A stretch of DNA of 64,000 bases from Heterotrichella gracilis. Lineage: Eukaryota > Sar > Xanthophyceae > Tribonematales > Xanthonemataceae. Made by a program: the position numbers and the translations under genes. The stretch lies in contig JAULBX010011212.1 in assembly GCA_032358255.1 (NCBI GenBank), positions 41,792 to 105,791 on the forward strand, given 5' to 3'. Below, piece after piece: positions 51,739 through 63,968 of the stretch. The notes under the pieces were generated by a model. The model worked only from the letters and a program-made list of their open reading frames with translations. It ran no database searches and was not told the origin of the DNA. Position 1 is the stretch's first letter, and each line of letters opens with the position of its first letter.

Positions 51739-54700
51739 TCACGACTGCTTTTCCCACACCGCAAAGTCCTTCCCGCTCACCACCCGCACCCAGCCCTGGG
51801 TCTTGTCTGGCTTGTAACTGCCCATGTCGTAGCGCGGGCCAAGCTTGACGGCAACCCTGAGCACAGGGGAGGATCACGTCACCACCCCGCACACCGGCCC
51901 CAGGAAAGGCGCATGCATATGGACATGCCATGGCGCATGCACATGCATCATGGCATATGGCGCAAGCGTGATGGGATTTCTGGCTCTAGTGCTGAACCAC
52001 ATGTGACTACCTAACAGTTGCAACTACAAGAAATCATTCCAATGCCTAAACCTAATATGCACATGCACCTGGCCATGCCGGTCACCACAGCCCCACCACT
52101 AATATAATATAAGTGCCCCCCTCGCATCCCCGCCACTCACTTGCCATCCACCACCGCAAAGTACATGTCGTCCTCAGCGCACTTGATCTCGAGTTTGCTG
52201 ATGGCGGTGATGCCTGCGCGCATCCGCAGCTCCGCCAGCGCCGCCAGCGTGTCCTTGTAGGGCTTCAGGTGGTCATTGAGCACGCAGGGCATGCCGGGGT
52301 GCGTGAAGATGTATGCGTAGCCCAGCGCGGTGTGCGAGGCAGGGAAGGGCCAATGCTGCTGGGTGCTGCCTGGAGTGGGCACACACAATGGGAGGTGTCA
52401 ACACGCCGCAGCTTTGGTGTAACAGCAGGAATGGGCATGTCAAATGGGCCCCTTCTTGACGCCATGCATCGTATCGTTAGCCGACCATACACAGACGCGT
52501 CCTGGCCGCCAGACTGGCCCACATATCCAACATGGGCAATGCCAAGTGCCAGATTTCCGCATCCAACCAGTCCCCGGCAAGCGCCCTGATGCCAAACCCC
52601 ACGTAGCCCCCATTCGATTCACCCATGGTTGCGCTACGCCCATCCCCAACATCACTGATCAAACCCCCACCACACAGCCCTATCTGCGCATGGTTATCCA
52701 CCAACGTGACCGCCTGCATACAAAACCCTACACCCTACATACAACCGGTGTCAAGGTTATCCTTGAGCGTAACTGCCTCAATCTTACACCCTACACCTTC
52801 AACCCTGAACCCCACCTGTGTCGTGGTTGTCCACAAACGTGACCGCCTTGCCCGGCCAGTAGCCAATCAGCCCCGGCGCCTTGCCCTGGCTATCCTTGAG
52901 TCGCCAGTACTGCGTGTTGGCCACCGCGTACTGCAGTATTCCCTTGGTGGGGAAGTCAAACAGCGTGCTCTCCTTGGCCTCGTCGAGCCAGTCGCACAGG
53001 ATCTGGCGCGCCTTGTCCTGGTTGGCGGCAAGCACGCTGCCCTCCCAGCTGCGGGTGGAGGCACAGTGAGGGGTCAGGCAAGGGGGTGGGCATGGGTGGT
53101 GGCATTGGCAAGTGTCAAATCATGTGCATGCCCTTGGCTGCTAACTTCAGGGATCGACCCGGGATCGCAAAATTCCCACAAGTCAAATCATCCTGTACCC
53201 AAAGGAACAAATCCCAGGAATTTCGTCTGGTATTGAAAGGCACTGAGTCAAAATCACAACGGATTGCCTAACAATGCAACAGGGAGGACTGCTGCACTGC
53301 AGGGGAAAAACATTACCAATATCAGTTATCTGCCAATATCAGTTATCTGCCAATATGAATATTATTTATATTTATGGTATGTGCCATGTGATATCAGTTA
53401 TACAGTACTATACCACATCTTCTTCTGTGGTGCACCTACAGCTACTTATGGTCTTCAACATTCTTTTTCAAGCATGACAGCACGCCAGTTGCGTGCGCTC
53501 GCACCCCCTTACCTCATGTCCACCCAGTACTCTCCCACGTTGAACACCGGCCCCACCGTCTCCTCGCAGTACTCGCGTGCGTATCGCGCCGCGTAGCCCT
53601 TGACAAAGTCAAAACGCCAGCCGCCAAAGCCCACACAGTCGCGCAGGAAATTGAGCCAGTCAATGAGGCAGGCGCGCAGGTGGGGGTTCATGTGGTCGAG
53701 GTCTGCAGGGAGAGGGCAAGCAGGCGTCAGCGGAGTGGAGCATAGCCAGACCCTCAACCCTAAACCCTAAGGCATCAGTGGAGAGGAGCATAGTTCCACC
53801 TCAGGAGGCAGGGCATTGCGAAGCATGGAGCAGCTTCATTTGACACAAAGCCTGGCTATCCCAGCATTGCTACCGCCCATTCCCCTGCTGCACAATATGC
53901 ACCCCTGGTGTGGTGTAGGGAATTACGCATGAGAGAAGAGGCAAGGGGTAGCTTTTGTGAGTCTGCACCACAGCCACATTCAAGAGACACAGCATTGCAG
54001 AGCTTGAACAACAACCATGTGCCCACAGCAAGGAGTTGCCACCTATTCCATGGTGTCGATTACCATGGCTGGTGCACCACATGCATGCATGGCTTGTTCA
54101 CCATCGTCCCATCGCGTGTGTGTGTGTACCCCCACCCTCCCATCCCACCTGGTGCAGGCCCATAGTCAGCGCCTGTGTCAGGGTTGCCCTGGCCGCCAAA
54201 ATCCGGGTCGTCCCCCGTGATGGCCCACACACCCCAGTCGATCTTGTTGCCCAGGTGGTCAACGTCGTCCCTGCACCGCGGCCATGGCCAATGTAAGTAA
54301 CCATGCGCACACCAGCACCCAGGCACAGCACGCCACACCATGGCAACTGTGCCACACAGCCATACTTACACTCAACATGCATGCAGTGTCCACAGCATGC
54401 CATCCTGCGCCAATGCTTGTGCCCAACAAACGTACCCACTGCCGCCTCAGCCTGGCTCATGCACATCCCTGTGGCGCAGGCACCACGGTGGTACCTGGCC
54501 TCCTGTAAACACTAAACCCTACACCTTATACCCATGGTTGGGCCTCACCTGAACTGGTTCCACCTGCCCTGCTCGTCCTGCTCATCCGCGCATCGGTGGT
54601 TGATCACGATGTCGGCCACAGGCACCAGGCCCGCGCTGCGCAGTGCTGCTGACAGCGAGTACAGCTCCTCGTGGGTGCCGTAGTGGGTGTTGAGGTTGTA

Positions 54701-56100
54701 CAGCTGGCCAGGCAGGTAGCCCTGCGCGCACAGCCAGGTGTAGGGTTTAGGGTTTAGGGAGGTAGCCCTGCAGGAACAGTTTTGACTCCAGAGTGGTGGT
54801 TGGGGCGTGCAGCAAGTTTCTTGATTCCATACCCTCTGCTTACAGCAGACACGTTGGATGACCAGGTTCACGCATTCACAAGGTCAAGGCAGGGTTTGTG
54901 CCACCCGCAGCAACGTGGGGTGTGGGTGCGTCAACCCGTAGGGCAGGGTGCAGTACCTGCTTGGAGACGGACTGGCTTGGGGGTGGCAGCCACACGTGGG
55001 TCACGCCGATCTCCTGCGCAAGCAGCAGGCAAGTTCAGGCACAGGCGTCCACCCACGGGACAGCAAACACACACACGCACACATACACAGGGAGGCGATT
55101 CGCCAGGAGCAGGCACTGGCGCTCTCTTATGAGGCAGCAAGACCACTTGGGGGAAGGTTCACCATGTCAGAGCACCACGCATGACTGGTACATAGAGCAA
55201 GCGGAATTGTCCCACTGGGTTTCCAGCCTGTCCGGGTGCAGGCTGGCAGCAGCGCCCTATCGCTGTCAGCAGCAGGCAGGCCTCACCTTGAGGTCTGGTA
55301 TGATGGTCTCCAGGTGCTTGTACCACCCCCCCTTCTCACAGCTGTCCCACCCAAAGGCTGCACACACACACAGGCGGGGAGGTTGAGAACACAAGGGAGG
55401 ACCTAACCTTTTGACACAAGTGACCACAGCACATACCCTAATGCAGGCTACCTAGGGTGTATCAGTAGCCTAGCTGTTGACGTACAGTGTGACAAAGTTC
55501 TCAAACGCATACATAGTAAGCGGCACCTTGCACGATATAAGCAACAATGTTGCCTAATCTGTGAGCAGTCCGTCTCGGAAGATGGCATCAGGCATGCACA
55601 TTCCGGGAGGGATGGGAAAGGAGGTTGGACCTACAATCACTGTGTGCAACCCTACAGCAACAACACTGGGTTGCCAAATTGAGCTGATGGACCGTTGCGC
55701 TAGCCTGTGCATGGTGGTGTGGGTTCCATCTCGTGGAACCCTAGATGACGATGCACTGCTCACTCAACACACCTTGAAAGAGCACCGTCTTCTCAAGGGG
55801 AATGCTTTGGGCCAGTTCCAGTCCGGACTTGACGCCATCCTTCGTGCAAGGGGCCTTTCCCCCAGAAGGCTTGTCTGTGGGGACCGGTGCAGTATCTGCT
55901 TCCTCAACCGCAGTGCAATGCATCGTGCGCCTCACGCAGTGCGTCGCTGGTCGGATGCCGAACGCGTGGCGGGTGCCGGCAGGCGATGTGTGGCGGAGGG
56001 TTGTGTGTCCACACTGGATCCTGTTTCCACCAGCGGCATGCGTGAGTGACGCCCGCATCGCGCTTGATGGCACCGCACACAGGCTGTGCTGAACAGGCAT
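51739..56100 (-). CDS. Alpha-amylase (GH13), probably plastid-targeted
   Basis: Endo-hydrolase of alpha-1,4 links in starch. Nine exons (56100-55773, 55357-55287, 55013-54957, 54721-54549, 54270-54149, 53702-53513, 53048-52816, 52369-52141, 51856-51739) sum to 1521 nt and 506 residues with all phases correct. The first 60-65 residues ([20 protein letters not shown] onward) are Ser/Thr/Arg/His-rich, as in transit peptides. GH13 regions: [31 protein letters not shown] with nucleophile Asp282; [15 protein letters not shown] with acid/base Glu308; [13 protein letters not shown] with Asp390. The [16 protein letters not shown] start and [10 protein letters not shown] end are typical of plant amylases. 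No separate starch-binding domain is present. At least four introns carry exon-edge duplications with telomere-like sequence. Confidence 0.95.
52688..52853. repeat. Exon-end segment present three times (one exonic, two intronic)
   Basis: The exon edge reading TGGTTGTCCACAAACGTGAC (about 52823) has two decayed copies in the adjacent intron: TGGTTATCCACCAACGTGAC at 52691 and AGGTTATCCTTGAGCGTAAC at 52754. Between copies lie CCCTACACCCTAC runs. The copy spacing is 63 and 70 bp. Confidence 0.85.
53722..53797. repeat. 25-bp duplication flanking a CCCTAAA run
   Basis: AGGCGTCAGCGGAGTGGAGC at 53722 and AGGCATCAGTGGAGAGGAGC at 53770 flank AACCCTAAACCCTAA. The site is in an amylase intron close to the exon acceptor at 53702. 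Confidence 0.8.
54491..54556. repeat. Decayed duplication of the exon edge flanking AAACCCTACACC
   Basis: TACCTGGCCTCCTGTAAAC (from about 54492) resembles the real donor edge GGTTGGGCCTCACCTGAAC (from about 54536). Between them is CACTAAACCCTACACCTTAT. The similarity is weaker than at the neighbouring sites. Confidence 0.5.
54714..54773. repeat. Duplicated exon edge flanking three telomere-like units
   Basis: AGGTAGCCCTGC occurs at 54714 (the real acceptor edge on the minus strand) and at 54760 in the intron. Between them lies TAGGGTTTAGGGTTTAGGG at 54741-54759. Confidence 0.9.
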
Positions 56101-56838
56101 GCCAGATGGTATTCAGGATATGGAAGCAGGGTTACATATCACAGGTAACGTAGGCCACTTATTTAGGGCGCATGCATAAGGTCCGCGGTGGTCTTTGGCT
56201 GATCAAGGTTGATGTGGCACAAAACTGTGGAAAGTGCTCCGAAAGTGCCAAGCAGTTTCCACCAAATAAGAGTATTATCATGATAATACCCCAGCCTGGG
56301 GTTACCCCTAGAGTTTATCTTATTTGAGCTAAATTCCTTGGATTTCTTTCAGGCAAAATATTTATGAAAGCCTTTGCTGCCATTGCTGTAAAATTGAAGC
56401 AGGTTTGCAATGGCTGCTGTTGGCACATATCTAGGAGCGGGCGTTCACCCAACGACACGACCCGCCAAAGCCACAAAAAGAGAAAAGACAAACTTAAAAA
56501 AAACGGCATCGTGCCACACACTCCACATCAACTGCTGCTGGCGGATTTTGGCCCGCCTTCGCTGTACGCCAGTCACCAGCAGCAGCACAGCTGAAACATT
56601 GGCAGCGCAGCGGCGGCTTCACCCCTGTGCGTTTGGTGACGCCTGTGGCCCCTGTCCAGGGTTGCCTACAGCCCGATGTGGTCTTGCAAAGCATCCGCCG
56701 CTGGAGGTCGCCTGTGCCACCTCAGTAGCTGCCTTTAGTGCTGCCAAAGGGGCCCACCCGCCCCACCATCCCTGCCGCTATACCCCATGTCTGCCCCTCC
56801 AAGCACCGCCAGCCAGGTCCCCTGCTGCAGCCCGGCTG
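56101..56838. other. Region upstream of the alpha-amylase gene
   Basis: It lies between the amylase start and the stop of the next minus-strand gene and probably contains the amylase promoter. A plus-strand open frame (56410-57291) runs through it but overlaps the real minus-strand exons and has no motif. An ATTATCATGATAAT palindrome sits near 56274. Confidence 0.45.
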
Positions 56839-58490
56839 CTACGCCTTTGCTGCAGGCACGCCTGGAACCACGCTTGGGTCCACGTCTATCTGTATCCAGT
56901 GGTACCTGCAGGGAAGACACAGCAGTGCCGATCAGCACACAGCCACAGCAGACAGACCACCAGCCTGATAACAACAGGTATTTATACGGTAGTGATCATT
57001 TCCTATGTACCCCTTGCTGATACCCTGCAGGCAGCATACCCACGCCAGGTACACTTTCCCCTTGCAAGCAGGTGCAAGTGCACCCCCCCCCCTCCAACCC
57101 CGCTTTGCTTGCCGTCCCACACATATGCCAGCACCCTGGGGTGCGCAGCCTGCCTCAACACACACATTGGTACCCTCCCGCCACCCGCCACCCGCCAACC
57201 CCCCCCCCACGCACCCCCTGTGCTGCAGCGACAGCGCCAGCCCCCTCCGCTGGAAGTCCGCCTGCGCCTGGCCCAGCGCCTGCCTGGCTGACTCCTCCCA
57301 TGCCGCGTAATCACCCGCGTCTGGGGACACAAAACAAAACCCAAACAGGAGGCCTGGGGGGAGGACAGATGGGCAACAAGTGAGGATGGGCATGCAAAAG
57401 CAATTCAGAGATGGAAATTGCGTGCGGAGGACTACTGGTTGGGCCGTGGCGTGCGCAAGGTGGCTGCTGTAGTGTGGTATGGTAGGTGCATGCAGTGTGT
57501 CCAGGGCATAGTGCACGTGCTGTGGGGTGCCCACCGGTAAGGAGTCTCGGCTCATGCCACGCAGCTGAAAGCCACTAGTATTCGCATCCTGATGCCACAC
57601 TCCTGGAAACATGGTTGGCGTGTGTACCAGCACCCACGCCAGTGCCCCAAGCACAACCCCCACCCCACCCACCCACTCACCGCACAGCGCCGCCCCGCAC
57701 CATCCCGCCACGTCCTTCCCCCCTGGCTTCTGCACGTAGGGGTGGGTCTTGGCCAGGCCCTCAGCGGTGGTCAGCAGCCAGTCCCAGGTGGGCTGCAGGA
57801 GGGGTGGGGGTGAGGTGGGCAGGACAAATAGTAGTGGTCTGGGGGTAGGCATTGTACACACTATATATAGGTATAGAGAGGGGAGGTGTGGGATTTGCAG
57901 GAGCTGTTGGCAGGTGTGCGGAGTGGTGACAGGTCGCGCTGGGAGTGCAAGGGTGGGGGCCAGCGAAGGGAGGTGGTGGGCCGGGGGGGGGTAAGACACT
58001 TGCAATGTCAAGGGCTATGTGCAGGGTAACCTATTCACTGCAAGGGTAGTTCATGAAGTCTTTTCTGAAGTATGACAGGATAGCACAGTAAGGGAGCATA
58101 GAAACCCAGGGAGCGGGTGCACACATGCCACCTCATGTAGCCCGCACAAGCCATGTGTCATAGCATGCTGTAAAGACAGTGCTTCAGTTTACTCTCAAAC
58201 CAAAGATTTTTTACATTAACCGGTTGACATTTCCAGAGCAGCACCAGCCACGCGGAACCAGGTAAACACGATATGCATGCATATGCTCGACACATGGTTT
58301 TCGGAACAAGGGATCTACAGCACCACTTGCCCTACGAGCATCCACTCACCAGGTCCAGTGCGTGCGCTAATTGCTGCGGCACCTGTGTGTGGTCGGTGCG
58401 CGACAGCTTCATTATCCGCCCCTCGCCAAACCCACCCGCACTCTTTATGAATTCGATTGCAACTCGGTACGGACCCTCGAAGCGAGCCAT
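56839..58490 (-). CDS. Unidentified 141-residue protein
   Basis: Four exons (58490-58350, 57792-57681, 57320-57215, 56905-56839) join at clean GT/AG sites in consistent phase and end at TAG. The protein starts MARFEGPYRVAIEFIKSAGG and has a positively charged middle. Recognisable stretches are PTWDWLLTTAEGLAKTHPYV, a DAGDYAAWEESARQALGQAQ helix and a final YHWIQIDVDPSVVPG. It is probably soluble, with helix then strand character, and has no signal peptide or membrane segment. Codon bias supports coding. I do not recognise the family. It is divergent from PRP17, with about 540 bp between the start codons. Confidence 0.6.
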
Positions 58491-59030
58491 GGCTACAGAT
58501 GACTATCGCAATCAAACTTCACAGGAAAAGACAAGACGCAGCTTGCCCGAGGCTTATTTGGGTATCATATCTGGAGAATCATTATACCGAAACCTGCACA
58601 ACGCGCCTCGTTTCCGCTGACCGTATTACCTTGATGCATGCATATGACAGCAAGCATTTTGCTTGCACACTAACAGAGCCTTTGTTGTCTGAAGGATATG
58701 CACTTTTGCTGTCAGCATCTATCGTCAGAAACAGTGTGGCAACCTGAGACACAAACTGACAGCACCTGATGGTTGACGGCTAGCCGGGTACCCCAAGAGC
58801 AGGCGTTATTATCAACAGGACGCGTCTTGTACACCAGTTTGAATACGGTAGCTCTGCCGCATAACAGCCTTTGGAGCTGTAACACAGCCACAGCTGGCAC
58901 ACAACCCCTGAGCAGGCTTTGAGGTGGGCGTGGCCTTGGGGGTGGTGTCGCCTGTGGCAGCGGGGGTGCTGTGGTGCCTGTCAATACAGCAGGTGGCAGG
59001 TGACTGGTGGGACAGGCAGTGGGGAGCGGC
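58491..59030. promoter_or_regulatory. Divergent promoter region of the 141-aa gene and PRP17
   Basis: 540 bp separate the two start codons. The left half is AT-richer, and the right half becomes GC-rich towards the PRP17 ATG. No coding bias was seen and no element is individually convincing. Confidence 0.45.
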
Positions 59031-62000
59031 ATGGACCTGATCGCAGAATACAGGTGCGAATTGAGGGAATGCACACATCAGCGCTGCACATGTGTGTGGG
59101 AAAATTAGTGGTGCTAACCAGGGGCAGTGCCTGACACGCATGCACCAGCGCGCAGCGTAATCAAACTTTATGTTATGATGTTGCCTGTGACGTACCGAAA
59201 CCAAGCAAGATGGTTTGGTGAACATCAAACCGCAAGCATATGCATGCATACACCCACCACCAGCATGCCCCCCTGTCCCTGCCACAGTGGCGAGGTGGCA
59301 GCCGGTGGCTCCAGCCAGGAGGAAGAAGTTGAGGAGATGGTGGAGGTGGACCTGGCGGCACTGCGACCGGCCAGCACAGCACCAGACGTACGCAACACAC
59401 ACACCCTCTACCCGCACCCATAGCTGCTGCCACCTCAGTGCATTAAGTGCTTATCTCTCGCCTGCCTTCACCCCTCGCTTTTCGAACCCAACACACATAT
59501 TACTGTAACACATATGCTATGTGGATAGCCTGGGTCTTAGCTGAGACCCCCCCACCCACATCAACCCTCCTGTCGCCGGGACAGCCCCTAGTAGCCGGCA
59601 CCCCAACCAAATCAGCCCAGCTGCACACGCACACCCACTCCTGTGCTCGCCCGAGCCTCTCCGCGCATACACACCATCTGCCTGCCCATCCGAAGCACAC
59701 GCCAGTCACCCCCCCAAACCCTCACACAGGTTGACACCACCGGCATGGCCATCGTCTCCAACCAGGCGGTCAGCGCAGCCAGCGTTCGGCACTTGCAAGG
59801 TAGGGCGTGCGTGTGTGAGGGCAGTGGGTGCGCAAAGTGCGCTTTGCCTCTCCACCGCAGCCAGTTGTTGCTCACCCCGTGCGGGTGCATCCTCTGTGTT
59901 TGTGCGTATGCATGGGTTGTGTGTGCATCAACTACCAGCTTGCATGTGTGGATAAACAGTAACGCCCGTGTGCCCTTCCCCATGCAGATGCGACCGCTCG
60001 CAAAGTGTACCACAACCTGCCGCTGGACCAGATGCACGCGCCAGTCGTAGGTGAGCGCCAGGGCAGTAGGGTCATGTACAGTAGGGATGTGGCGCTCCCG
60101 TGGCAGTCGGGCCATTTGGCAAATCTAGGGAGCATACAAAGGGGTTGTCTCCCAGCAGCTGTAGAGCATGTGCGCCCTTGCCTGTCTCACTTTTGCTTGC
60201 ATGTCTTTGTGTGGGGCTCACAGCATGTCCCGCCTCGGTACCACGTTGGTCAGGCTTGGCCCCCAAGGCATGGGGTTGCTGACTCCCCACCAAATGCCAC
60301 CCCCCATCCGTTGCAGGCCCTGCTCACCCCTACCACAAGGACGCTGTATCAGGGGGGATCAAGAATCACCGCGCGGGGCATGTGGAGGTGCGTGTGATGG
60401 GCCGAGCGACTTTGGGATTTGCGGGCATGGTGTTATTGTTGAGGGTTTAGGATTTTGCGAGCAAATGACTGTGCATGCAGATTTGCATGGGTGCGTTTTA
60501 TGGGACGTCCGGAGGGGCTGCCCCACCCCTACGCCATGGGTTGGGCTGCATACATAGCAACTGGGCGTGCTTGCATGTGGGTGCACAGGTGCAAGAGCTC
60601 TTAGTCCATCCCACCCCAATCTCCCCCAACGTGAATCTAGATGCACCCAATAAGCCTTCACATCACCCACCCACCCCATGCACCACTGCGACGCCACCGC
60701 CACCCTTTTCACCACCCATACATCCCCCCGCAGGACGCACACTTGCACCCTTTCCACTTTGACTCCCAGTACCACACCTTCCACAGCTACGGATACGCGG
60801 CAAACCCTGAGGGTCAGGGATACGTGCTGGCGGATGATCACGCATTCACAGCAATGCAGGGTGGGTGGGGGTGGCACCCGCTGTGTGGGAGGGGAGGGTG
60901 ACGCGCCGGTGTGGCACACTGGTGGCAATTAAATTACAAGTTGGCAAGCAAAACGCAGCATCATTTGGTCCCATGCGCCCTTCGCAACATGCATGTGGCG
61001 CTCCATCATGCAGTGGGCCCCGTCACTGGGCCGCTTGTGCACTATTCATGCGCTACCATGTGCACTGCAATGTCCATCCCCGCCCTGCCCCGCTCTCCCT
61101 GTCTCACTCCCTCTCAACTACCCTCCCACTCTCCCCCCAGGCGTGAGCGTGTTTGAGGAACCTGCTGCCAAGCGGCGGCGTGAGACCCCCCAGGAGAAGG
61201 CGGCCAGGGCCGCTGCCAAGGCGCAGGCGGCACAGGGGGATGCAGACCAGCCCTGGGAGCTGCAGCAGAGGTGGGTGGGGCACGGGGTGTGCGCAATGTG
61301 GTGGTGGTGTTGCATGCAAAAGGGCCGGCTAGTGGAGGTTGCTATGTTTGGGTGCATTGTGGAAATGATCTGGACCAGCAACGCGCGCAATGTGCACTGG
61401 CCAAGAAGGCCCCATGCCGGATCAATCCACCTTTTTTTTTTCAAAATCTAAACCCTGAGCAGCAAAAAACTGCCTAAAGCCTGTTTGGGTCGTTACACCT
61501 CTTGACATCTGACGCTTGTCTGGTGTAAAAGCTGAAATGCAGATAAATTCTTAATGCCTCCTGCTAATCTTCTGCACCCCTCCCTGTGTGCAGGCAGCCG
61601 TGGGCGGAGCGCGCCGTCCGCCCTGCACAGCTCACCGAGGAGCAGGCTGCATATCTGGAGCAGGTGGCGGCGGAGAAGGAGGCGGCTGCGGCTGCGGCTG
61701 GGGAGGAGGGGGCGGAGGGCGCGGTGGCGGTGGCTGGCGGGTCCAAGGTGCCGCGGTCAAACTTCCATGGCAAGGAGAAGGAGGACTATGCAGGTAACGA
61801 GGAGGGGAGGGAGGGACAAGGGGGTCGCTGCGTGTGGTGCATATGTGTGTGCATGGGTCTCTAGCTTGCTTGTGCTGGAATGGCGCCAAGGGCGGCGCCA
61901 TGCTGCTACCCAATCCATAACCTTGTTCGTGATGCATCAGGGCCTAATGCTTTGCAAGAAGATTTGAACTCCAAATGGTACTTTACTGGGCGTGCTGCCG

Positions 62001-63968
62001 CCATCCACTGCCGCCATCCACGCTTCGCTCCGGCATCATGCTTTGAATGCGCACACCCATAACGCCCACCGCATGGCCCCTCCTTACCTCACCCCCACCC
62101 CTACCCCAGGCCGGTCCTGGCTTGAGGCCCCCAAGGACAAGCGCTCGCCCCCCGACCAATGCTACCTACCCAAGCGCTGGCTGCACACATGGTCGGGGCA
62201 CACCAAGGGGGTGAACGCAATCAGGTTCTTCCCCGGCACCGGCCACCTCATGCTCAGCGCTGGGCTGGACGGCAAGATCAAGATCTGGGATGTGTTCAAC
62301 ACGCAGAAGTGCATGCGCACGTACCAGGGCCACAGCAAGGTGGGTGGAGGGGTTGCACTACATATGCCAAACCCTAGCTTAGGTTTTTAACACGCAGAAG
62401 TGCATGCGCACATACCAGGGCCACAGCAAGGTGGGTGGGGGGATTTGCATCACTTGCATAGTGGGTGTGCGCGGCAGCGGGAGGCGCACCTCGACCTCGC
62501 TCCTAAACCATAAATTTTGGACTTTGAGCTCACATGGATTCAAATTTGCGTCCTGCCAAAGGCATGAACCCACCCATCGTAGAGTGCGCACAACAAATGG
62601 AAATAACTTTCAACAATCCTAGATGTTTCCATACATGCCAGACCCTAGCTTAGGTTTCTAACACACCCCACCCCTCCGCAGGGTGTGCGCGACATCTGGT
62701 TCAGCAACGACGGGCGGCGCTTCCTGTCGTGCGCCTACGACAAGACCATCCGGGTGTGGGACACTGAGACGGGCGCCGTGATCAAGACCTTTGGCGAGGG
62801 GCGCATGCACTACTGCGTGCGGCTGCACCCCGACGAGGACAAGCAGCATGTGCTGATGGCGGGGGGTGGGGACAAGAAGATCTACCAGTGGGACATCAAC
62901 ACGGGGGACCTGGTGCAGGAGTATGACTACCACCTGGCGGCGGTCAACAGCATCACGTTCATTGACGAGGGGAGGAGGTGCGGACTGGGAGGGGGCCGCG
63001 GGGTGGACAGTCCTGTGAATGTGCATTTGCATACACATACATAGTGTGGTGATTACAAGCCCACGCCATGGGAGGTTTTTGGGGGGGTCTGGAGGTTTTG
63101 GGGGGGGTCTGGGGGGGGCGGTGCACAGGCTATGGCAGTCGTCATTCCACGAGCTGCATGGCCTTATCATGCCTGCCAGGACACTTTTGTAGCTGCGTGG
63201 CTTGAGGAGCCATCCGCACGCGCCAGCAAGCCCTTGCTGAATGTGACGGTGTATACTGCAAACCCTACACCGCAAACCCTACACCTTACTCCCCAACCCA
63301 CGTGCAGGTTTGTGAGCACCAGCGATGACAAGACCATCCGGCTGTGGGAGTTTGGCATCCCCGTGCAGATCAAGTACATTGCAGACCCATCCATGCACTC
63401 CATACCCGCCGTGTCGCTGTCACCGGATGACAAGTGGTTCATCGGCCAGTCCATGGACAACCAGGTGGGGCCTAGGGTCTTTAACTGGAGTTTTCATTTT
63501 AGGGTTCAAGGCCAGTCCATGGAAGTTCAGGTGGGGCTAACACCATGGTCGGAGAGGTGGGGAGGTGCATGGCGCATAGTTGACTGCTGATTGGAGCTGG
63601 ACCAAAATGGCATGAAAAAAGAACAGGAGAGGCAGGTAGCACAAGGGTAAACCTTGCCTAGGGCAAAGAGTTCCACCATTACCGTAAATTAGTTGTTGTT
63701 GCCTGTAATACTAGGTGACAGCACTGCCCACAGATGCCTGTTCCGCATATTAAGCGATGGATTCCATCATACTAGTCAAGATTTATGTGGAATTGCATTA
63801 CACAATATAAAGGTAATATACTGGTTCATAGCCAACCCTGCACCCCTTGTGATCCGCTGCCCTACCTCCCCTGCTGCGCAGATTGTGACGTACAGCACCA
63901 AGGACCGCTTCCGCCAGAACCGCAAGAAGGTGTTCAAGGGGCACACAACCGCAGGATACGCGTGCCAG
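59031..63968 (+). CDS. Pre-mRNA splicing factor PRP17/CDC40, 3' end outside the window
   Basis: PRP17 is a WD40 protein of the second catalytic step of splicing. Twelve exons are visible: 59031-59053, 59288-59387, 59730-59799, 59988-60050, 60317-60387, 60734-60860, 61141-61270, 61594-61793, 62110-62339, 62682-62977, 63308-63464 and 63882-63968. They total 518 codons in frame, and the gene continues past the edge. After an acidic N-terminus come GPAHPYHKD, a nuclear-type KRRRE segment, [53 protein letters not shown] and then WD repeats: [75 protein letters not shown] and [20 protein letters not shown]. The order matches CDC40 throughout. The last one or two WD repeats are missing. Confidence 0.96.
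62298..62440 (+). repeat. Duplicated 3' edge of PRP17 exon 9 with donor
   Basis: The exon end CAGAAGTGCATGCGCAC...GGCCACAGCAAG with its GTGGGTGG donor (62298-62347) is repeated at about 62390-62440 with one base change in the coding part. Between them is AACCCTAGCTTAGGTTTTTA. A related CCCTAGCTTAGGTTTCTAAC recurs just before the true acceptor at 62643-62662. Confidence 0.9.
63443..63541 (+). repeat. Duplicated 3' edge of PRP17 exon 11 with donor
   Basis: GGCCAGTCCATGGACAACCA with GGTGGGGC (63444-63471) recurs as GGCCAGTCCATGGAAGTTCA with GGTGGGGC (63510-63537). The segment between includes TTTTAGGGTTCA. Confidence 0.88.

Follow-up and report, generated by a model that had tools for sequence, protein, structure and literature searches.

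Exon-edge duplications enclosing telomere-type units in introns of the alga Heterotrichella gracilis

Exon-edge copies in the alpha-amylase and PRP17 genes

The window analysed here is a stretch of 64,000 nucleotides from the genome of the xanthophycean alga Heterotrichella gracilis, with an alpha-amylase gene on the minus strand and a PRP17 gene on the plus strand. Exons throughout are predictions of a self-trained HMM gene finder that takes no RNA input. In both genes some introns carry a second copy of the neighbouring exon edge, separated from the working copy by a short spacer (Table 1). The sequence-only reading had reported such copies, splice site included, in at least six introns of the two genes. 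The copies are real, although their number was overstated. At a cut-off of score at least 13, a clear copy lies within the adjacent intron at 4 of the 50 exon edges (25 introns) of the region concerned and at 3 of the 164 edges in the remaining window, vs. a chance expectation from permuted edges of 0.36 copies over all 214 window edges. The aligned copy takes in the splice site in three of the four cases; the amylase donor copy stops short of it. The same pattern is also present in other stretches of this genome; there are fewer cases in the window than first claimed and far more outside it. The window holds more CCCTAMA motifs than shuffled sequence does, 28 vs. a mean of 14.9. Searches of the window gave no Rfam match at gathering scores and no tRNA with ARAGORN.

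In PRP17, the pair at donor edge 62339 spans 63 bp with the splice site included, and all three mismatches in its exon columns fall on third codon positions. The protein is contiguous over HSK|GVRD when compared with the Prp17 of 8xi2. The spacer contents first described for this gene, AAACCCTAG at edge 62339 and TTTTAGGGTT at edge 63464, were found again.

The amylase junction DNHDTG|STQ at donor edge 52816 is contiguous in a barley-type amylase alignment, and the score of its intron copy, 17, is equalled by none of 5312 permuted edges. The telomere-type units noticed earlier in the amylase spacers are likewise present, as CCCTACA at donor edge 52816 and TTTAGGG at acceptor edge 54721. Another duplication in this gene, at 53722, is real, yet it lies wholly within the intron, 19 nt away from the exon, and contains no splice site. 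The flanks of the telomere-like tract in intron 54271-54548 were searched and no duplication was found. A distant amylase paralog, C65, has intron positions in common with this gene, yet it shows no duplications at score 14. By eye only, a third and more decayed donor copy can be made out near 52746-52778.

Table 1. Features of the PRP17 and alpha-amylase genes (positions in the window)
Feature	Position	Strand	Remarks
PRP17 exon donor edge and first 15 intron bases, working copy	62292..62354	+	splice edge 62339
Spacer at edge 62339	62355..62382	+	holds AAACCCTAGCTTAG; also given with AAACCCTAG
Intron copy of PRP17 donor edge 62339	62383..62445	+	92% identical, score 37
Second copy of spacer motif (62364-62393), near acceptor of same intron	62635..62664	+	
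PRP17 exon donor edge 63464, working copy	63444..63471	+	
Spacer at edge 63464	63472..63509	+	holds TTTTAGGGTT
Intron copy of PRP17 donor edge 63464	63510..63537	+	splice site included, score 19.5
Amylase exon donor edge, working copy	52816..52848	-	aligned part 52824-52848; HMM gene model, copy pair
Intron copy of amylase donor edge 52816	52691..52715	-	25 bases, 92% identical, ends 8 nt before splice site
Stretch separating donor copies	52716..52823	-	CCCTACA at 52726, 52733, 52789
Duplication inside amylase intron	53722..53793	-	53722-53745 / 53770-53793, surrounds CCCTAAA
Amylase acceptor edge, working copy	54710..54733	-	exon start 54721; score 14, null p 0.0006
Intron copy of acceptor edge 54721	54756..54779	-	TGCAGG retained
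Three telomere-type units separating acceptor copies	54739..54759	-	CCCTAAA, CCCTAAA, CCCTACA (gene sense)
Telomere-like tract near donor of intron 54271-54548	54506..54533	-	flank score 7.0

Duplications and telomere units across the genome

A sample of 296 kb out of the 68.5-Mb genome holds 249 local direct duplications, vs. 0-1 in shuffles. They group into 136 clusters, in which the best pair mostly measures 20-100 bp. A telomere 7-mer occurs in 136 of the 237 spacers of at least 7 bp, compared with 20% of 2370 random placements. Conversely, direct repeats of score 18 flank 51 of 129 telomere tracts, compared with 97 of 2204 random positions at the same loci. The remaining 78 tracts lack a flanking repeat of that score and 101 spacers lack the 7-mer, so that duplication can in part be dissociated from telomere insertion. 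Telomere units are found at internal sites far above chance: the genome contains thousands of short internal telomere-repeat words, with 7831 two-unit words genome-wide vs. 13 of the reversed word, and 834 three-unit words vs. no reversed ones.

The spacers of young pairs (L046, L037, L023, and L027) consist of nearly pure telomere units and little else. Over 42 clusters, older copies tend to have less pure units, but this is a trend only (rho -0.26, p 0.09). Multi-copy arrays are present at three loci (L024, L026, and L047), and duplications occur also at two loci without a predicted gene (L041 and L042). A look at telomerase priming at the left 3' end gave no clear picture: of 40 cases, 13 have a left and 8 a right junction that abuts or overlaps the telomere unit in register, with many cases coming from arrays. 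A second allele, which might have shown an empty site, was looked for with two query regions and none was found.

Duplications per intron are overdispersed relative to a Poisson distribution (chi2 113, 54 df). They climb with GC3 (rho 0.47, p 2.5e-4, 55 genes), a correlation for which no causal reading is claimed; telomere density shows no such rise (rho -0.10). A mixture of two genomes in the assembly was considered as a reason for duplication-free loci and rejected, as the loci differ little in GC and GC3. Methylation-linked repair of exons at CpG found no support: exon CpG observed/expected shows a weak positive correlation with duplications (rho 0.28, p 0.04), and intron CpG shows none.

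Position and orientation relative to splice sites

Duplications are in excess at exon edges. The comparison of edges with intron interiors proposed as a refuting test in the sequence-only reading was made on 383 introns and revealed an enrichment at the edges, with 70/688 vs. 50/1097 at score 13 and 43 vs. 18 duplications at score 20. Similarly, 49 of 59 duplications with a telomere spacer touch a predicted exon, vs. 40% after relocation (7 more dropped; p 1e-11). Telomere-repeat density itself peaks 10-60 nt inside the intron ends, and still does so with the chosen centres excluded. On the acceptor side, only a weak peak remains once detected duplications are set aside: the density is 0.035 at 20-30 nt and still 0.022 at 120-160 nt.

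The orientation of the units is biased at acceptors. All 23 acceptor-side duplications carry CCCTAAA (23 C : 0 G), and 10-60 nt upstream of acceptors the density of CCCTAAA is 0.03-0.06 vs. 0.004-0.013 for TTTAGGG. Donor-side duplications reveal both orientations (10 C : 12 G : 1 tie). Genome-wide counts are 522 C vs. 251 G before TGCAGG and 404 C vs. 509 G after AGGTGNG. Among 34 intron-only pairs, 4 are C, 11 are G, and 19 have no telomere unit.

Decay of the copies and the growth of introns

The pooled divergence between copies at codon positions 1, 2, and 3 is 0.087 (80/917), 0.085 (78/918), and 0.179 (164/915), respectively. This is the pattern of one constrained and one neutral copy, and it indicates that one copy is the working exon and that the other decays neutrally. 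Synonymous-looking differences at one locus (L031) had suggested that both copies are translated, a view abandoned in the light of these pooled values. Several inner copies were predicted by the gene finder as additional in-frame exons, and the columns in which both copies were called exonic show the same ratio (25/347, 27/347, and 60/344), as expected if inner copies are misread as exons. Intron-intron columns differ at 267 of 2356 positions (0.113), below the third codon positions.

The copied splice site is identical in kind in both copies, rather than a donor in one and an acceptor in the other. In none of 505 introns do donor and acceptor lie within a common duplication of score at least 12 (best 10), so that intron gain by tandem genomic duplication, with donor and acceptor supplied by the copies, was not encountered in this set. 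The sequence-only reading had suggested that introns could be made or lengthened in this way. The data support lengthening as the net effect; the making of introns is unsupported apart from weak hints, namely register repeats across splice sites in 7 of the 505 introns (control rate 0.06%) and paralog-specific introns with duplications.

Comparison with known systems

In plants, natural insertions often have duplicated flanks, which Vaughn and Bennetzen and Schiml and co-workers reportedly explain by paired nicks. To our knowledge, telomere inserts and a preference for splice sites are no part of these patch-mediated tandem duplications. 

In human and mouse cells with induced breaks, CST-guided fill-in by Pol alpha-primase at 3' overhangs of staggered breaks gives small tandem duplications of less than 100 bp; the accessible part of that report describes neither a telomere insert nor an exon-edge pattern (PMC8355091). 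The direct local duplications of the alga resemble these products, as far as that part goes, in being mostly 20-100 bp long. Since the CST/Pol alpha complex also fills in telomere ends, telomere addition at the same ends seems plausible.

Interstitial telomeric sequences at double-strand breaks are known from rodents, primates, and horse, with target duplications among the outcomes; in the available portions of these papers, a plain duplication is recorded for 6 of 130 insertions in rodents, 4 of 25 in primates, and 3 of 66 in horse (PMC2246262, PMC7215372). According to the same portions, the horse paper ascribes the target duplications to staggered breaks, human exons are without insertions, and the human intron insertions (31%) are consistent with random placement (PMC2246262, PMC7215372). 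The alga likewise has short internal telomere tracts and target duplications; unlike the mammalian insertions as described there, its tracts have flanking direct repeats in the proportion given above (51/129) and their density peaks near intron ends.

In intron gain by tandem genomic duplication, splice-like sequence in exons is duplicated and the copies provide both splice sites of the newly gained intron, according to the parts of the two sources available (PMC3443670, PMC2891723); in the alga, both copies keep one existing splice site and the intron grows. Direct repeats pairing the 5' with the 3' intron border, with a mean of 11.4 bp, are described in the accessible part of another study (PMC11782384), whereas in the alga the copied edge measures ~20-100 bp and its copy stays on that side of the intron, frequently together with telomere units. 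Among the matches listed in a mostly open-access literature, none reports telomere-associated duplications of exon edges in algae, and the available portions of three further papers (PMC12633428, PMC8226300, PMC6410037) hold nothing on them. The ingredients are already known; their concentration at exon edges and their scale appear to be new.

Origin of the duplications

The best explanation, to which we give a probability of about 0.6, is error-prone repair of staggered breaks that leaves duplicated flanks around telomerase-type DNA, with splicing sorting the survivors. A pair of breaks, one in each strand and offset by 20-100 bases, would produce complementary overhangs. Telomerase would add TTTAGGG units to a 3' end, or the end would be joined to telomere DNA, and fill-in of the other strand followed by end joining would yield flank, telomere units, and flank. 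If the flank covers a splice site, the outermost site would still join the exons, and therefore the protein would be unchanged, the insert and the second copy becoming intronic. The orientation bias at acceptors may reflect a selection filter, since TTTAGGG in the sense strand would present a false TAG|G acceptor and CCCTAAA would not. Later misalignment could turn some sites into arrays. Break repair that adds telomere-type sequence, one of two origins offered in the sequence-only reading, fits the variable duplications of ~20-100 bp, the pure units of young pairs, the lack of an element, and the duplications at loci without a predicted gene, although the mechanism itself is conjectural. The exon-edge excess counts against it, as a simple break model forecasts none. 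The tracts without flanking repeats, the spacers without a 7-mer, the mere trend of purity with copy age, and the weak acceptor-side peak outside duplications also speak against it.

It is unlikely that tandem duplication or replication slippage came first and that telomere-like units later arose, expanded, or collected in the spacers. The many spacers without a 7-mer, the multi-copy arrays, and a telomere purity not clearly tied to copy age would suit such an order of events, but the frequency of the 7-mer in spacers relative to random placements, the nearly pure young pairs, and the rarity of the reversed two-unit word argue against it. The exon-edge excess could also be a detection bias, the conserved exon keeping copies recognisable longer than intron-intron pairs. 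The 1:1:2 divergence would imply ~1.5 times longer visibility, and the low intron-intron divergence looks as if older intron-only pairs had been lost. This seems rather unlikely, given that relocation still gives p 3e-7 with exon copies visible 1.5 times longer, that telomere density, which needs no copy, peaks near intron ends, and that 15 of 40 pairs of at least 93% identity are intron-only vs. 69% expected (6 more dropped).

There is also a small chance that the telomere-like motifs are selected splicing elements, for example a branch point or a pyrimidine supply, and that the duplications are incidental. The uniform CCCTAAA of acceptor-side duplications and its high density upstream of acceptors agree with this; however, the donor side carries both orientations at about equal densities, inner copies decay neutrally, and purifying selection against false acceptors accounts equally for the orientation. 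We know of no splicing role for such motifs on the donor side. Introners, finally, show target duplication and a position at intron ends, and the sequence-only reading had offered an introner-like mobile element, with splice sites from its duplicated target, as the other origin. The direct repeats around the insert, the telomere units close to intron ends, and the few register repeats over splice sites resemble this. Unlike introners, however, the spacers of the alga have no common element sequence: 167 spacers with telomere units masked gave no cross-locus match. Together with the variable duplication length and the copying of one splice site in place of a donor-acceptor pair, this largely refutes the element, which we consider very improbable.

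Returning to staggered-break repair, a wider version is possible but doubtful, in which telomerase-linked repair, biased to the borders of coding exons, keeps lengthening introns throughout the genome. Each event would be self-correcting because the splice site that is hit is duplicated, and some paralog-specific introns (the amylase intron at residue 42; in paralog C233, those close to residues 87 and 174) may have arisen or been rebuilt in this way.

Intron growth is mostly invisible because its scars fade. Here many scars keep one copy as an exon and the other decays neutrally, which provides a built-in clock of 1:1:2 by codon position. With 136 clusters in 296 kb, the whole genome probably holds a very large number of events that could be dated. 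The orientation bias is a natural experiment on the tolerance of the spliceosome. For annotation, the inner copies call for caution, as a gene finder can read them as extra in-frame exons.

Duplications in the Alpha-Amylase and PRP17 Genes

The sequence-only reading had described exon-edge duplications with telomere-like spacers in the introns of an alpha-amylase gene and a PRP17 gene. Part of this stands: the region holding both genes contains four clear edge copies. The minus-strand gene matches barley alpha-amylase across nearly its whole predicted length (E 3e-114), and the plus-strand fragment matches spliceosomal Prp17 (E 5e-96). The Prp17 alignment runs unbroken through HSK/GVRD, at the very junction where the donor edge is duplicated. 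The working exon is thus the outer of the two copies, and the inner one belongs to the intron. Three more duplication-bearing genes have strong Pfam matches (dihydroxy-acid dehydratase, KH-domain and RCC1 proteins); the predicted proteins inspected share no obvious function.

Sample and Gene Models

The assembly around the window comprises 68.5 Mb in 903 contigs. Besides the window, the sample included 20 stretches 10 kb long and another 20 of 1.6 kb (296 kb in total); it is non-random, the 40 stretches having been picked for a three-unit telomere tract from the first part of the place list. Eight loci overlapping sampled stretches were excluded from the counts. Exons were predicted by a simple splice-aware HMM, self-trained on this sequence without annotation, which recovered both known genes and called 563 introns (median 242 bp) with sharp splice motifs (donor AAG/GT[GA]NG, acceptor TGCAG/G). 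Some inner copies were misread as exons (one is listed in the table), and exon-touching counts therefore carry some error. In predicted proteins of three stretches (L031, L010 and L022), inner copies show up as in-frame exon repeats created by ab initio calling; such false repeats may sit in automatic annotations of genomes of this kind.

Number and Structure of the Duplications

Genome-wide, the exact three-unit telomere word (CCCTAAA or TTTAGGG type) occurs 834 times vs. 0 for the reversed control, and the two-unit word 7831 times vs. 13, overlapping words counted. A scan for direct repeats at offsets up to 300 bp found 249 pairs, grouped into 136 clusters; trinucleotide shuffles yield 0–1 pairs, which rules out a base-composition artefact. 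A telomere 7-mer is present in 136 of 237 spacers of at least 7 bp, as compared to 20% of random same-length placements. We aligned the 46 clusters that have a telomere 7-mer in a spacer of at most 130 bp and at most two pairs each: by hand count, one or both copies include predicted exon in 38 of them, and the other 8 lie entirely outside exons. Donors and acceptors alike usually show an exon edge with its splice site, telomere units and a decayed second copy. Young pairs are simple, as in an intronic pair of identical 22-bp copies around 28 bases of TTTAGGG-type units (L046). Duplications lie on many contigs of the sample, not at every locus (none in L017–L020). Two stretches where no gene is predicted (L041, L042) also carry them; in either stretch, one of the two spacers contains a telomere 7-mer. 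Splicing is therefore not required for their formation. At no fewer than four places in the genome, a donor-like word with a telomere tract is repeated in tandem at intervals of about 60–110 bp.

In alignment columns with exactly one exonic copy, mismatches between the copies number 80 in 917 columns for the first codon position, 78 in 918 for the second and 164 in 915 for the third (third vs. rest, p 4e-12). Such a 1:1:2 ratio is what should result when one copy is free to mutate in the intron and the other, in the exon, is restricted to silent changes. Best-pair identity ranges from identical down to 71%, so the process seems to have run for a long time and to have acted recently as well.

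Concentration at Exon Edges

Enrichment of duplications at exon edges over the intron interior, which the earlier reading implied, was borne out. In a scan of 383 introns that passed over short exons and segments of low complexity, 33 of 337 donor edges and 37 of 351 acceptor edges have a copy in the adjacent intron, vs. 50 of 1097 intron-interior segments, 7 of 459 exon-interior segments and 2 of 1023 permuted edges. The excess in odds is 2.4-fold at the threshold used and 4-fold at a score of 20; exon copies staying visible longer, by an estimated factor of about 1.5, account for part of it. When each duplication was moved within its locus, its spacer kept in an intron, 60% of those with telomere spacers were predicted to be intron-only, vs. 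10 of 59 observed (7 others, with the spacer midpoint outside an intron, dropped); the figures for duplications lacking a telomere 7-mer are 65% vs. 23 of 57 (13 dropped).

Telomere 7-mer coverage in the same 383 introns peaks 10–60 nt from both splice sites, and no copy is needed for this. It reaches 0.02–0.05 near donors in either orientation and 0.03–0.06 near acceptors for CCCTAAA; past 160 nt from donors it is 0.004–0.007, and past 160 nt from acceptors 0.012 (CCCTAAA). Overall coverage is 3.4% in introns, 0.34% in exons and 1.3% in intergenic sequence (reversed units: introns 0.57%, exons 0.39%). The peak persists when the middle 800 bp are removed from every 10-kb locus. With detected duplications also excluded, the donor peak persists and the acceptor peak is weak (0.035 at 20–30 nt, 0.018–0.019 at 30–60, 0.022 at 120–160). 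The window by itself gives the same trend on few bases.

Units in the gene's sense are CCCTAAA in 23 of 23 acceptor-side duplications with telomere units, vs. 10 CCCTAAA, 12 TTTAGGG and one tie among 23 at donors (Fisher p 2e-5); intron-only pairs divide 4 vs. 11, and 28 of the 136 clusters were untypable. TTTAGGG before acceptors is rare, not absent (density 0.004–0.013 at 10–60 nt). Genome-wide, two-unit words number 522 CCCTAAA vs. 251 TTTAGGG 5–35 nt before TGCAGG and 404 vs. 509 after AGGTGNG, a contrast diluted because these words also occur away from splice sites. Sense TTTAGGG ahead of an acceptor would create a false acceptor, TAG/G, and selection against it may produce the orientation bias.

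Origin of the Duplications

Together, this is a real, recurrent process that lengthens introns. Of the two origins proposed earlier, an introner-like element, whose duplicated target would supply the splice sites, was rejected: the spacers have only telomere units in common. For break repair, PMC2246262 and PMC7215372 describe telomere repeats inserted at mammalian breaks, sometimes with target duplication, and PMC8355091 describes tandem duplications arising when CST and Pol alpha-primase fill in complementary 3' overhangs, the complex that likewise fills in telomere ends. If telomerase lengthened such a 3' overhang before fill-in, a single event would yield flank, telomere and flank; telomerase priming at the duplication junctions was not demonstrable. 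These ingredients are known; their combination and scale were not found described in the open-access literature searched.

A simple break model does not explain the exon-edge preference, since uniform breaks followed by selection would leave equal telomere density along introns. Events could be biased to coding exons, with survival limited to those that carry a splice site; alternatively, intron ends could be prone to breaks. The copied part is more exon than intron in 18 of 23 donor-side pairs with telomere units (p 0.01) and 14 of 17 without; acceptor-side pairs have no such lean (13 of 23 and 5 of 11). A lean at donors but not at acceptors favours neither alternative.

Intron Gain and Related Observations

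The earlier proposal that the process makes or lengthens introns holds for lengthening; birth by tandem duplication yielded no clear case. Two further amylases lie on contigs C65 and C233. Judging from tblastn breaks, C65 and the window amylase appear to have common intron positions near residues 23, 99, 140, 203, 281 and 357. The C65 gene has no duplication at score 14, and the C233 gene has 20 overlapping pairs. The window intron at residue 42, with an acceptor-edge duplication, is missing from both paralogs; the C233 gene has breaks close to residues 87 and 174 that coincide with its edge copies and are missing from the other two. Because the paralogs are distant, gain and loss of these introns are indistinguishable. 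By eye and in the pair list, the C233 intron after DFVK has several donor-edge and two acceptor-edge copies.

Seven of 505 introns have a short border-to-border match in splice register (score at least 6 on one side; control rate 0.06%), possibly old footprints of intron insertion.

Coordinates of individual features (L, sampled stretch; C, contig of the whole genome, G000)
Feature	Sequence	Positions	Remark
Inner copy misread as exon	window	62398-62430	
Amylase paralog with DFVK intron	G000 C233	70832-75522	
Tandem donor-like word and telomere tract	G000 C23	72995-73248	
Tandem donor-like word and telomere tract	G000 C76	74893-74996	
Tandem donor-like word and telomere tract	G000 C61	87976-88106	
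Tandem donor-like word and telomere tract	G000 C32	110440-110575	
Splice-register match	L035	131-236	strongest four, exon end to intron end
Splice-register match	L020	6017-6150	strongest four, exon end to intron end
Splice-register match	L021	8093-8304	strongest four, exon end to intron end
Splice-register match	L012	7514-7740	strongest four, exon end to intron end
Short dispersed repeat	L010	3986-4057	intronic, about 60-70 bp

Duplications per intron differ strongly among 55 predicted genes and increase with GC3 (rho 0.47). CpG is depleted, with observed/expected ratios of 0.45 in introns and 0.60 in exons. The short dispersed repeat has no relatives in other sampled stretches and at least nine on other contigs, at 78–85% identity.
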